Shown one piece after another: positions 25,056 to 49,596 of a stretch of 49,732 nt of DNA. Origin of the DNA: Thiomargarita sp. (GTDB taxonomy: Bacteria > Pseudomonadota > Gammaproteobacteria > Beggiatoales > Beggiatoaceae); NCBI GenBank assembly GCA_020721045.1, contig DYNN01000011.1, forward strand, positions 1 through 49,732. Direction: 5' to 3'. The number at the start of each line of letters is the position of its first letter. Within the stretch, counting starts at the first letter, position 1. Under the pieces are notes generated by a model. It searched no databases, had not been told where the DNA came from, and saw only the letters and a list, made by a program, of their open reading frames with translations. Made by a program: the position numbers and the translations under genes.

Positions 25056-25424
25056 TTACTTATTAAATTTATTAATTTCTTTAATAATTTGATCTGGTGT
25101 ATAGGGTTTTTGTACTAATGATTTTCCTCCCTGCATTTCTGCCCACATACGATCAGCCTTTTGTCCTTTACTAGTAACAAATATGATAGGAATATCCTTG
25201 GTCGATTCATTGTGCGTGATCTCACGGCAAGCCTGATAACCATCCATTTGTTGCATTACCACATCCATAAAAATCAAATCTGGTTTTTCAGAACTGGCTT
25301 TTTCGATGGCTTGTTGACCTGAACTGGCATCAATGACCTCATAACCTGCATCTCGAACAATATTTTGAATATTTACTCGATCAACGGTTGAATCGTCAAC
25401 GACAAGGATTTTATTAATTGCCAT
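25056..25424 (-). CDS. Single-domain response regulator, PilH/PilG type
   Basis: A 122-residue stand-alone CheY-like receiver with no output domain. Acidic pocket D10/D11, phospho-acceptor D54, Thr84 and Lys106 are all present. FVTSKGQKADRMWAEMQGG and QKPYTPDQI are typical of PilH/PilG receivers of the Pil-Chp twitching-motility system. The usual MDxxMPxMDG loop reads MDVVMQQMDG, with Gln replacing Pro. It lies 143 nt downstream of another receiver gene on the same strand, mirroring a pilG-pilH pair, but no pilI/pilJ/chpA genes follow. Confidence 0.85.
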   Translation of the reverse strand: MAINKILVVDDSTVDRVNIQNIVRDAGYEVIDASSGQQAIEKASSEKPDLIFMDVVMQQMDGYQACREITHNESTKDIPIIFVTSKGQKADRMWAEMQGGKSLVQKPYTPDQIIKEINKFNK

Positions 25425-25567: not shown

Positions 25568-26398
25568 CTAACCACTCGTTTCTGGCGCATTAGGCAAGAA
25601 CTGTCTAATGACTTCTTTGAGTTTCTCTTGTTCCACGGGCTTAGTTAAATAAACGCTTGCACCCGCCATTGTGCCACGCAACTTATCAAAACGCGATCCC
25701 TTACCCGTCAGCATAACAACCGGTGTGTTTTTGGAAGCTTTATGCGATTTAATTTCCTTACATACCTTATAGCCATCGATACCCGGCAACATGAGATCCA
25801 AGAAAATAATATCATATAAATTATCTGGTTTTTTAACGTAATCTAAAGCTTCTTCACCCGTTTCTGCAAAATCAATATCCATTCCATATAAACCCAATTG
25901 AATTTCCATTGATTTACGCACTGGTAAACTATCATCAACAACAAGGACTTTAGTACCGGTACGTGTCACTTGCTGAGCACTTTGGGCAGCATCTAACAGA
26001 GCCGCATTTGCAGCTTCATCCAATACATCTTCTCCACCAACAACCAATTCCGGCACATACTTATGCACTTCGATAGTGACTTTATCAAGTGTTTCTAAAA
26101 CTCTTTTTAAGGTTAATGGTCGTCGTAAGTAAACTTCTGTTGGAGATGCATCAGCAGGGACAGCCTTTGCTACTTTAATAACGGGAATATTATTATTGTG
26201 TACAGTGAAACTTTTCCATTCATTAACGGCATTATTGTCATCCACATCAACGAGCACAATCTCAGCAGCGGCACGCTCTCCCGAACTAACCATTATATAT
26301 TGCCGGCTGCGTGAAGCTGCAAGCTTGAAAATACTACCTAGGGTGTTTTGCTCATTCGATGCTAAACCGAATACACCCACCTTAAAAACTTTATCCAT
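25568..26398 (-). CDS. Two-domain response regulator with C-terminal receiver
   Basis: A 276-residue cytoplasmic protein. The C-terminal receiver (residues 149-267) is complete: D155/D156, phospho-acceptor D201, Thr231 and Lys253 in LTKPVEQ; MLTGKGSRFDKLRGTMAGA resembles PilG-type receivers. Residues 1-115 look like a degenerate receiver or small alpha/beta domain with no phospho-acceptor pattern, joined by an Ala-rich linker (about 125-145). No DNA-binding or enzymatic output domain is present. Its position beside a PilH-like gene suggests a role in surface motility or chemotaxis-like signalling. It lies 84 nt downstream of zapD on the same strand. Confidence 0.82.
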   Translation of the reverse strand: MDKVFKVGVFGLASNEQNTLGSIFKLAASRSRQYIMVSSGERAAAEIVLVDVDDNNAVNEWKSFTVHNNNIPVIKVAKAVPADASPTEVYLRRPLTLKRVLETLDKVTIEVHKYVPELVVGGEDVLDEAANAALLDAAQSAQQVTRTGTKVLVVDDSLPVRKSMEIQLGLYGMDIDFAETGEEALDYVKKPDNLYDIIFLDLMLPGIDGYKVCKEIKSHKASKNTPVVMLTGKGSRFDKLRGTMAGASVYLTKPVEQEKLKEVIRQFLPNAPETSG

Positions 26399-47306: not shown

Positions 47307-47335
47307 ATTTTACCTACAGAAACAATACGTGTCAA
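47307..47335 (-). promoter_or_regulatory. Strong promoter of the str operon
   Basis: On the minus strand TTGACA (47335-47330), exactly 17 nt, then TAAAAT (47312-47307). Transcription would begin near 47300, leaving a leader of about 114 nt to rpsL. It is the best sigma70 match on this strand and drives the ribosomal cluster. Confidence 0.8.
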
Positions 47336-47355
47336 GCATATTTATCTTCTACAAA

Positions 47356-47374
47356 TATCACCTAATATGTGATA
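47356..47374. promoter_or_regulatory. Palindromic operator-like site upstream of the str promoter
   Basis: TATCAC (47356-47361) and GTGATA (47369-47374) flank 7 nt. The centre (47365) is about 65 nt upstream of the predicted rpsL transcription start, a typical activator position. The regulator is unknown. Confidence 0.35.
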
Positions 47375-47412
47375 GTTCAACAATATTGCAAAGAGACACC
47401 ATCCGCGCATTA

Positions 47413-47435
47413 TAACAGCTTTTTTTACGCTGTCA
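47413..47435 (-). terminator. Possible hairpin terminator after the methyltransferase gene
   Basis: On the minus strand TGACAGC pairs with GCTGTTA (7 bp with one G-T) around an A-rich loop, 49 nt beyond the methyltransferase stop at 47485. No T-run follows, so termination may be weak. Confidence 0.35.
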
Positions 47436-47484
47436 TCCTTTTATTTAACCATTTGTTCAAAATAATTAAAACGCGGTGGCTGTA

Positions 47485-48156
47485 TTACGCTTCACTAAAA
47501 GCCGCAATTGCTTTTTCAAGTGTAGCGACTGATGATTTATTGTTGAGTTTTACGTTATATTTTATGCTGTTGCGTTCTAAGGAAAAAGTTTTACGTGGTT
47601 GGATAGGTGTGCCCTGATAATCGCGTTGTACTTCGATATATACACCAAATTCTTTAATGACTTCTTTGTAATATTTCAAGGCATAGTCAAGATTGATTTT
47701 GTTTTCGTATAAATCAATTAATGTTTGTGCATCAACGACATAATGAATCTCTTTTAATAACCAACGTGCTTTTAGTACTTTTTCCCATAACTCTGGAAAC
47801 CAAACACAAATATGCATATATTGATCTTCGTTGAGTTGAGAAACGTGTCCGGTTATAAAAGCTGCATTAGTAAAGGCGTAAGGTGTCCAAAATTCGAGTT
47901 GTGCTCCGTTTTTTGCCACGCGCGTTATTTCTGGAAATATGAGATTGGGTTCTTGAATATGTTCAAGAAAATGCGCGGAAAAGATGTATGAAACACTTTG
48001 ATCGACAAAAGGAAGAGGTTGTTTAACTAAATCTAACGCATAATCAACACCGGGTAATGCCATGATGTCGATACCTAAACACCCTTCCTTTTTATTACCA
48101 CCACAACCAATGTCAATTTTGATGTCTTGTGGTAAATTTTCTTTGTCCGTTGTCAT
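47485..48156 (-). CDS. Class I SAM-dependent methyltransferase-like protein
   Basis: A 223-residue protein with SAM-binding motif I IDIGCGGNKKEG (residues about 14-25), the acidic motif II region GIDIMALPGVDYALDL, and HFLEHIQEPNLIFPEITRVAKNGAQLEFWTPY cut here at family motif HxLEH, as in methyltransferase type 11 proteins. The C-terminal third (EVQRDYQGTPIQPRK) is not a domain I can name. The substrate is unknown. It starts 25 nt after the GTPase gene and is the last gene of a three-gene minus-strand unit. Confidence 0.75.
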   Translation of the reverse strand: MTTDKENLPQDIKIDIGCGGNKKEGCLGIDIMALPGVDYALDLVKQPLPFVDQSVSYIFSAHFLEHIQEPNLIFPEITRVAKNGAQLEFWTPYAFTNAAFITGHVSQLNEDQYMHICVWFPELWEKVLKARWLLKEIHYVVDAQTLIDLYENKINLDYALKYYKEVIKEFGVYIEVQRDYQGTPIQPRKTFSLERNSIKYNVKLNNKSSVATLEKAIAAFSEA

Positions 48157-48181
48157 ATGTAATGTCTTAATGATAGTTTGG

Positions 48182-48733
48182 TTAGTTGCTTTTTTGCCGT
48201 AACCCAGGGTCTAATGAATATAATAGTGCTTGTAATAGTAGAGAAACGTCCCTTTTATTGCGTGCATCTACTTCAAAAATAGGCGGATTAAAACCTAAAG
48301 AATGCAATTTTTGATGATAATCTACCAATTTAGGTTTGTCGTTTAAATCCATTCTTGTGACACCAATAGCGAAATTATTCCGTTTAATAAAATGTGAAAA
48401 TGCTTTGACAAAAAACAGCATGTCTGACAGGGGATCAGTACGTGTGTTGTCAATTAATAAAATTAAACCCAATCCACCTTCCGCTAAAATTTCCCACATA
48501 AAATTAAAACGTTCTTGTCCGGGTGTGCCATATAGATGAATTTTATCACTACTAGGTAATTTCATCATACCATAATCTAATGCAACGGTAATTGTTTGTT
48601 TATATTTTTGTTCTTTATCAATTTCATTAGATTTTGCTTCAGTCATAACGACAGGAATATCGCTGAGTATAGAAATAGCCGTTGATTTTCCCGCACCGGA
48701 GGGACCTGTAAAAATTAGTTTGTAGTGGCTCAT
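48182..48733 (-). CDS. Small Ras-like GTPase of the MglA/COG2229 type
   Basis: A 183-residue bacterial small GTPase. G1/P-loop is GPSGAGKST (10-18). G3 reads GTPGQERF (69-76), lacking the usual Mg-coordinating Asp of DTAGQ, as is typical of this bacterial family. G4 is TRMD (126-129) rather than NKxD, and G5 is near DARNKRD (156-162). Such GTPases act as polarity or signalling switches and are usually paired with roadblock/LC7 regulators; none is in the window. The gene starts 23 nt after the HD protein gene and precedes a methyltransferase, so the three are probably co-expressed. Confidence 0.85.
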   Translation of the reverse strand: MSHYKLIFTGPSGAGKSTAISILSDIPVVMTEAKSNEIDKEQKYKQTITVALDYGMMKLPSSDKIHLYGTPGQERFNFMWEILAEGGLGLILLIDNTRTDPLSDMLFFVKAFSHFIKRNNFAIGVTRMDLNDKPKLVDYHQKLHSLGFNPPIFEVDARNKRDVSLLLQALLYSLDPGLRQKSN

Positions 48734-48756
48734 AATGAAAAATTGTAAATACAGGA

Positions 48757-49596
48757 TTAAAATTTGTGAAACTCAGTATGTTCTGATGCAAAAACATGAG
48801 AATACAGATTTGCAATCCATTGCTTACCTTCTTGTGTCACTCTCAAGTAGTGTAGCCCGTCTTGAATATAGCGACTTATCATTCCCCAATAAAATGAAGG
48901 GTAACTCGTACGTAAATCCAAAGGGGAACTATAGCCTAATTGTGCATTAACACCTGTTTCTTGAAATTCGTAAAACAAAGCGGGGAGTTTACGTAGATAA
49001 TGAGGGTCTGCCAATTGTCCTATCAAATCAGCCGATCGAACCAAACCCGGGTAAGAGGATGTACTTTGATGATCGGTATCGTCGGGTACGGGAAAGCGGG
49101 TTAATTCTATATTAGCTGCGATCACTTCAGCGTCAATAATCGGATGCCCTCCAAAACGTTCCCGAATAAATAGTTTGCCGCGATCAACATGGTAAGGTGC
49201 CATGGATGCATCGGTGGCACCGGGGGCTAAAATGACAAATTTATCTTTGATTCCAGTGGTATATTTGCCATCACGATCATCACGACAAATACCGCGTACA
49301 TGCCCAATATCATGGCATAATAGGGAAATAATGAAATTTAACCAATCTCGATGTGAAACGCCACCTTCACGAATATGTTTGCCACGTAAAATTTCTTGTC
49401 CTACCAAAGTGACCATGATGGTATGTTCCATGTTATGGTACAACGCATCACTATTGGCAAAGTGTTCTAATGCCATGCGCCCCGCCCAAGCAATAATGGA
49501 AGAATTAGCCGCTTCCAAAGAGCCGTAATTTCGACGGTATGCTTTTTCTAGTTCTCCTACAAAGCCATCAATAACCAATTCAGTGGGAGTAAACAT
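48757..49596 (-). CDS. HD-domain phosphohydrolase with cyclic-nucleotide-phosphodiesterase-like signature
   Basis: A 279-residue cytoplasmic protein with YHNMEHT (His54, His58), then CHDIGH (His95, Asp96, His99) and a later acidic site in LVRSADLIGQLADP (Asp188). The YHNxxH...HDxxH spacing resembles class I cyclic nucleotide phosphodiesterases and related bacterial metal-dependent HD hydrolases, so it probably cleaves a phosphoester of a nucleotide or second messenger; the substrate is not known. No sensory domain is fused. The ATG 49596 is the natural start. It leads the HD-GTPase-methyltransferase unit. Confidence 0.8.
   Translation of the reverse strand: MFTPTELVIDGFVGELEKAYRRNYGSLEAANSSIIAWAGRMALEHFANSDALYHNMEHTIMVTLVGQEILRGKHIREGGVSHRDWLNFIISLLCHDIGHVRGICRDDRDGKYTTGIKDKFVILAPGATDASMAPYHVDRGKLFIRERFGGHPIIDAEVIAANIELTRFPVPDDTDHQSTSSYPGLVRSADLIGQLADPHYLRKLPALFYEFQETGVNAQLGYSSPLDLRTSYPSFYWGMISRYIQDGLHYLRVTQEGKQWIANLYSHVFASEHTEFHKF

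Follow-up and report, generated by a model that had tools for sequence, protein, structure and literature searches.

The three-gene cassette at one end of the window, the whole 49,732-nt stretch analysed here and a contig of the 3.39-Mb genome of Thiomargarita sp., looks as if this lineage had put it together from an MglA gene of Group 3 type, a gene for an HD protein with a predicted phosphodiesterase fold, and a stray methyltransferase gene. With a probability of roughly two in three, we read it as a lineage-specific cluster built from parts of separate systems, for which no joint mechanism is needed. The GTPase would act in trans with partners encoded on another contig (C139), the HD protein would be a cyclic-nucleotide phosphodiesterase (PDE), and the methyltransferase would act elsewhere, perhaps on a surface glycan. 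The positions of the three genes and of nearby promoter-like sites are given in Table 1.

Table 1. Positions in the window of the cassette genes and of promoter-like sites.
Feature	Position	Strand	Product	Basis
HD protein, NCBIfam NF045583 (Npun_R2479 family)	48757..49596	-	279 aa, ATG start	457-bit profile match
Small Ras-like GTPase, Group 3 MglA type	48182..48733	-	183 aa, ATG start	motifs and tree
Class I SAM-dependent methyltransferase, sporadic, possibly surface-glycan type	47485..48156	-	223 aa, ATG start	PF08241
Promoter-like site before the GTPase gene, inside the cassette; possible GTPase transcription start	48742..48770	-		consensus match 10/12; no evidence of function
Promoter-like sites in the methyltransferase-rpsL gap	47307..47436	-		two matches of 11/12; no evidence of function

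Re-reading of the ORFs reproduced exactly the gene order of the initial annotation, with three minus-strand ORFs separated by 23 nt (HD-GTPase) and 25 nt (GTPase-methyltransferase). Its family assignments also held: the HD protein carries a phosphodiesterase-like signature (Y53-H54-N55-M-E-H58 and H95-D96-I-G-H99), the GTPase has the MglA-like motifs LYGTPGQ (G3) and TRMD (G4), and the methyltransferase has an IDIGCGG motif. The three ORFs look like real genes, because the profile scores of all three exceed their cut-offs. A scan of the cassette revealed no terminator-like site between the genes, and their co-transcription is plausible; rpsL may be transcribed apart from them. Downstream of the cassette come rpsL, rpsG, and fusA, identified by inspecting the translated sequences, while the contig ends 136 bases upstream of the HD gene, with nothing readable beyond. 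Among 11 relatives read by eye, the gene content upstream of rpsL varies, and no ORF in their 1.5-kb rpsL flanks resembles the HD, GTPase, or methyltransferase genes. Insertion into a fixed slot upstream of rpsL was rejected on this variability, and the position of the cassette is therefore uninformative. An anti-phage defence system was likewise rejected, each of the three proteins matching 0 PADLOC families at E up to 0.01.

The initial annotation had proposed a single undescribed signalling unit of three parts and had named a search for conserved adjacency as a check. Pooling the HD loci from several genome searches and from wider stretches, and merging those with identical HD DNA, gave 90 loci including the window. 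The 89 others include 79 with both flanks no shorter than 1 kb, and 65 in which they reach 3 kb or more; none of the 89 shows a match to the window GTPase, its two paralogues, or the methyltransferase in the DNA covered. Conversely, the HD gene is found in 0 of 23 GTPase orthologue loci (at least 55% identity; flanks up to 1.5 kb). On these two sets of loci a conserved three-gene cassette was rejected, the families being adjacent in none of the relatives examined, an outcome that the initial annotation had itself named as refuting its proposal. The families also differ in their occurrence across the 57 genomes searched as relatives: HD proteins over the family cut-off occur in 26 genomes, the window's own included, GTPase matches in 32, and methyltransferase matches in 10. 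Five genomes have GTPase matches and no HD protein (G003, G012, G023, G027, and G029), and four have the HD protein with no GTPase match at all (G001, G008, G020, and G033).

These distributions bear on the possibility that the cassette is a true functional unit in its own lineage, in which the HD protein clears a cyclic nucleotide, the GTPase reads or gates the signal, and the methyltransferase acts on either of these proteins or on a target common to them. The common strand and the short gaps free of terminator-like sites suggest one transcript, and operons often join related functions, which counts against a cluster of separate parts. For a single genome, the probability that the gene following HD on its strand would by chance encode any of three GTPases is roughly 0.0005, a rough estimate reckoned after the fact with an assumed gene number. 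Furthermore, a second small-GTPase system, accompanied by a cyclase, meets the HD family in genus g140. However, two separate HD-GTPase meetings compare with about 0.42 expected, which gives a P of only about 0.07 (rough, with assumed GTPase numbers), and the HD gene adjoins neither partner in the 89 other loci. The partly exclusive occurrence of HD and GTPase genes, and a methyltransferase that exceeds 50% identity in only one other of the 57 genomes, also speak against such a unit, which we consider quite unlikely. A cluster of separate parts is favoured instead because the HD gene is never found with the GTPase or methyltransferase in the other loci, while nearly all GTPase orthologues have a receiver-like gene, and none the HD gene, as their neighbour. 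It is also favoured because the presumptive partners of the GTPase and the own-genome match to a frequent HD neighbour lie on contigs C139 and C136, apart from the cassette.

Both PF03029 and PF00071 match the GTPase with scores over cut-off, and alignment places its G3 motif at residues 67-73 and D156-A157-R158 at G5. There is no Arg near T49, which we ourselves read as the G2 Thr, and the residue before it is Ile. As described in PMC4316618, Group 3 is defined as a clade in the published MglA tree; its members share the GTPGQ form of G3 with Groups 2-5, and a G4 often without the usual Lys and a DAR at G5 with Group 2, and they have a Thr instead of an Arg finger beside the G2 Thr. Their typical neighbours are a protein with a receiver-like N-terminus and a wHTH-like C-terminus, and one or two MglB proteins (PMC4316618). 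The initial annotation had pointed out Gly in place of the G3 Asp, together with TRMD; both features are already described for Group 3, of which the Gly is a mark, and therefore carry no novelty.

The assignment of the window GTPase to MglA draws on these motifs, on the published description, and on the roadblock and receiver-like genes that adjoin it in relatives; by motif, it fits the Group 3 type. In a tree of 31 rows (own-family rows and one Rup row), the window copy falls among the orthologues linked to the receiver-like gene and apart from the main paralogue group, the relevant forks having support of 89/88 and 85/81, under the starred level of the tool. It is the single copy of this orthologous group found in its genome, where the two other matches are paralogues (51% and 37% identity). 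Profile searches of the PDB with the GTPases ranked Rabs above MglA and therefore fail to separate MglA from its Ras kin; a single-sequence model (pLDDT 46) was too poor for use. A literature search combining Beggiatoa, gliding, and MglA returned no paper about Beggiatoa by title.

A receiver-like gene of about 390 aa lies at most 400 nt upstream of the GTPase gene in 21 of the 23 orthologue loci; of the two exceptions, one has only 223 nt of upstream sequence before its contig begins, and in L103 a partial match lies at a distance of about 1 kb on the upstream side. Two proteins of this receiver-like family were scanned and gave no Pfam match over cut-off. The receiver-like gene is present in all 17 wider stretches around the GTPase (L116-L132), accompanied by a roadblock gene in 15; genes for CZB (zinc-binding) proteins, one or more per stretch, flank the receiver-like and GTPase genes in 16, the CZB call being based on one scanned protein (PF13682). 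The typical locus in relatives is thus roadblock - CZB - receiver-like - GTPase (- CZB), and this work reveals that an MglA locus of Group 3 type exists in genomes that we call Beggiatoaceae-like, our label for the group named Thioploca, Thiomargarita, Beggiatoa, Halobeggiatoa, or Thiotrichaceae.

In the genome of the window, the roadblock, CZB, and receiver-like genes lie together on C139 and are followed by a gene on the opposite strand, with no GTPase gene beside them; a second CZB gene is on contig C92. Neither the receiver-like partner nor the roadblock gene adjoins the window GTPase. We infer that the GTPase would form a Group 3-type MglA switch in trans with the C139 receiver-like partner and roadblock protein, the latter as an MglB-like GAP, and that this switch probably controls a type IV pilus or gliding polarity. 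In Snodgrassella, which has a Group 3 mgl locus, mutation of an orphan mglB appears to alter type IV pilus motility, according to PMC11112851. The separation from its partners, which sets it apart from 21 of 23 orthologue loci, could also mean that the window GTPase gene plays no part in the Group 3 switch and is a redundant or degenerating copy. We hold this to be highly improbable for a full-length ORF with all GTPase motifs intact that is the sole copy of its group found in the genome.

Other loci of the same genome contain related components. Within the window, a response regulator (25568-26398, minus strand), adjoined by a short receiver protein (25056-25424), has an N-domain that matches that of the Group 3 partner (hhalign 92.7%, E 4.3e-7). 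Contig C187 (L114, 5893-10550) carries a pair of MglA-like GTPases together with a roadblock gene, close to a CHASE2 class III cyclase and to a gene that looks like a DNA methylase. The match to the neighbour of about 350 aa that accompanies C187-type GTPases in relatives is on a different contig, C185 (L115), at 26% identity. In neither case, then, does the receiver-like partner gene seem to be linked to its GTPase here.

The HD protein is a member of NF045583, matching the family profile at 457.4 bits (curated cut-off 400) over residues 2-273 and profile positions 1-274 of 275. The family is named "Npun_R2479 family HD domain-containing metalloprotein"; the name derives from a locus tag and carries no function, and it was not found in the literature searched. 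No title or abstract start listed in searches for bacterial class I PDEs names the family, and we know of no enzyme assay for any of its members. In the genomes covered here, the family occurs in Beggiatoaceae, part of the Cyanobacteria, and scattered other bacteria. The window protein is 82-89% identical to most Beggiatoaceae-like matches and 76-77% to a few. Among 146 genomes from the phylum of a Nostoc locus, 30 exceed the family cut-off, some cyanobacteria having up to four copies per genome. In 398 genomes from the phylum of the window, only its own genome does so, and 28 match at E up to 0.001.

An AlphaFold2 model built from 21 family members is predicted with high confidence (pLDDT 89.3, pTM 0.88). 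In a Foldseek search with this model, class I PDEs take every place from rank 1 to rank 19, with a best E of 5.1e-3 and probabilities of 0.99-1.00, followed by yeast cyanamide hydratase, other HD proteins, and dGTPases, with further PDEs interspersed. A VIA comparison with PDE10A gives a Z of 17.0 over 230 aligned residues (rmsd 3.5 Å) and a match spanning residues 7-278, with the tool warning that all-helical models can give high Z by chance. Of the 50 VIA rows shown, 48 carry phosphodiesterase in their title; the remaining two, 5vp0 and 4ys7, we take to be PDEs too. The model thus has the whole predicted fold of a class I cyclic-nucleotide PDE catalytic domain. A PDB search with the HD sequence profile retrieved an exportin and, with a best E of 1.7e-5, chains of designed PPR and solenoid proteins, all of which were set aside as chance rows of helical-repeat proteins.

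At the sequence level, the protein scores 18.1 bits against Pfam PDEase_I (PF00233); since this is under the gathering cut-off of 24.8, we describe it as class I-like in predicted fold and do not file it as a PF00233 member. PDEase_I matches at E up to 1 are found for 18 of 21 family members (best E 0.00021). A genuine PDEase_I gene elsewhere was rejected, PF00233 being over cut-off in 0 of 57 genomes. In an alignment of 82 distinct family proteins, H54, H58, and D96 are invariant (82/82 each), while H95 is present in 78 and D190 in 80. These residues would correspond to the metal and catalytic residues of class I PDEs (HNxxH, HD, and the later Asp), and they are probably metal ligands. Members in which one putative ligand is replaced, D190 by Thr or H95 by Ser or Gln, were seen at L028, L138, L064, and L230-L232. 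Some family members may be non-catalytic, because four rows lack H95 and two lack D190.

Outside the window's own genome, 28 HD loci reach 70% identity, and in 15 of them HD is followed on its strand by a gene with CHASE, PAS, GGDEF, and EAL domains, the matched stretches lying 41-1384 nt apart; elsewhere the surroundings of HD vary. The domains were assigned by Pfam in two loci and by tblastn in others. GGDEF and EAL matches also lie some 4-6 kb from HD in L210 and L225. The best match to this gene in the genome of the window is the one on C136. The HD protein might accordingly hydrolyse a different substrate, for instance a product of c-di-GMP breakdown or some other phosphoester, and work with the CHASE-PAS-GGDEF-EAL protein in Beggiatoaceae. 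This alternative, which would also suit the PDEase_I score, is possible if rather doubtful, given that the whole-domain fold match is to class I PDEs of cyclic nucleotides and that the family adjoins a cyclic-nucleotide cyclase operon in g140. Moreover, the CHASE-bearing gene adjoins HD in none of the 34 loci of the 60-70% identity band and in none of the 27 below 60%. In that largely cyanobacterial 60-70% band, 17 of 34 distinct loci (L135, L141, L143, L145-L151, and others) have a permease gene downstream of HD on the same strand, which we presume to be DppC-like.

Below 60% identity, 4 of the 27 loci have a Rup-type operon near HD, all in genus g140 (G244, G252, G409, and G439). The operon encodes a PAS histidine kinase, a coiled-coil-like protein, a protein with a weak OmpA match (19.1 bits, under the cut-off of 27.2), a Ras-family GTPase, and a Guanylate_cyc protein; the two cyclases scanned score 73.1 and 66.9 bits against Pfam Guanylate_cyc. 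All four genomes found of this genus have HD beside the class III cyclase match, the HD gene standing at either end of the operon (L182, L183, L184, and L216). It is convergent with the cyclase gene in two loci, the ORF ends being 54 and 38 nt apart, and lies upstream of the kinase gene on the same strand in the other two. This linkage, kept in two arrangements within one genus, points to cyclic-nucleotide turnover. A weaker cyclase match was seen about 5.6 kb from HD in the cyanobacterial locus L233.

We favour a cyclic-nucleotide PDE because of the predicted fold, the g140 cyclase linkage, and the class III cyclase also encoded in the window's own genome. The HD protein would then be a metal-dependent enzyme of class I fold acting most likely on cAMP or cGMP. 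Against this stand the PDEase_I score under cut-off, the lack of any Foldseek match reaching E 0.001, and the absence of H95 in 4 of 82 and of D190 in 2 of 82 family proteins. As for the link between nucleotide turnover and a GTPase that the initial annotation had suggested, the cassette itself has no counterpart in relatives, but the HD family does adjoin a different small-GTPase system with a nucleotide cyclase in g140, and some such signalling link is therefore still conceivable. A bolder proposal would make NF045583 an unrecognised bacterial branch of class I PDEs that turns off signals in partnership with small GTPases, adjoining an operon of a Rup GTPase and a class III cyclase in the proteobacterial genus g140 and sharing one transcript with a Group 3-type MglA here; we judge it unlikely.

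The methyltransferase scores 27.1 bits against PF08241 (cut-off 21.2). Relatives above 50% identity are found in one of the 56 other genomes (G022), which has two, at 57% and 54%. The 57% relative is followed by ABC2_membrane and ABC_tran genes, a pair that we assume to be of the polysaccharide-export kind, and action on a surface glycan is weakly suggested. A PDB search for a clue to the substrate gave only weak matches (best E 0.011).

Taken together, the cassette should not be filed as a new system, and there is little to follow in it as a three-part unit. What merits study is the HD family, bacterial proteins of about 275 aa with the predicted fold of animal cAMP/cGMP phosphodiesterases and no assigned function. 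Should they hydrolyse cyclic nucleotides, they would provide an off-switch for bacterial cAMP/cGMP signalling and a simple relative of a major drug-target family.

Compared to the class I PDEs (PF00233; PDE1, PDE2, PDE5, and PDE10), the HD protein shares the predicted catalytic fold, the YHNxxH and HD motifs, and the conserved later Asp, but it is only 11-13% identical to them in the VIA rows shown, scores under the Pfam cut-off, and belongs to a family without a regulatory domain. Relative to NF045583 as named, the cyclase and phosphodiesterase links come from the present analysis. The g140 operon resembles the Group 1 Rup systems, as these are described in PMC4316618, in its histidine kinase, coiled-coil-like protein, weak OmpA match, and Ras-family GTPase without the G3 Gln; it differs in adding a class III cyclase and an adjoining HD gene, and it is not the system of the window. 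With the Group 3 MglA systems, as presented in PMC4316618 and, for the Snodgrassella mgl locus, PMC11112851, the window GTPase shares the GTPGQ G3, the Lys-less G4, and the DAR G5, and its relatives share the adjacent roadblock and receiver-like proteins. In contrast to those systems, the window GTPase is unlinked from its partners, and the Beggiatoaceae loci add CZB proteins, a word absent from the main text of PMC4316618.
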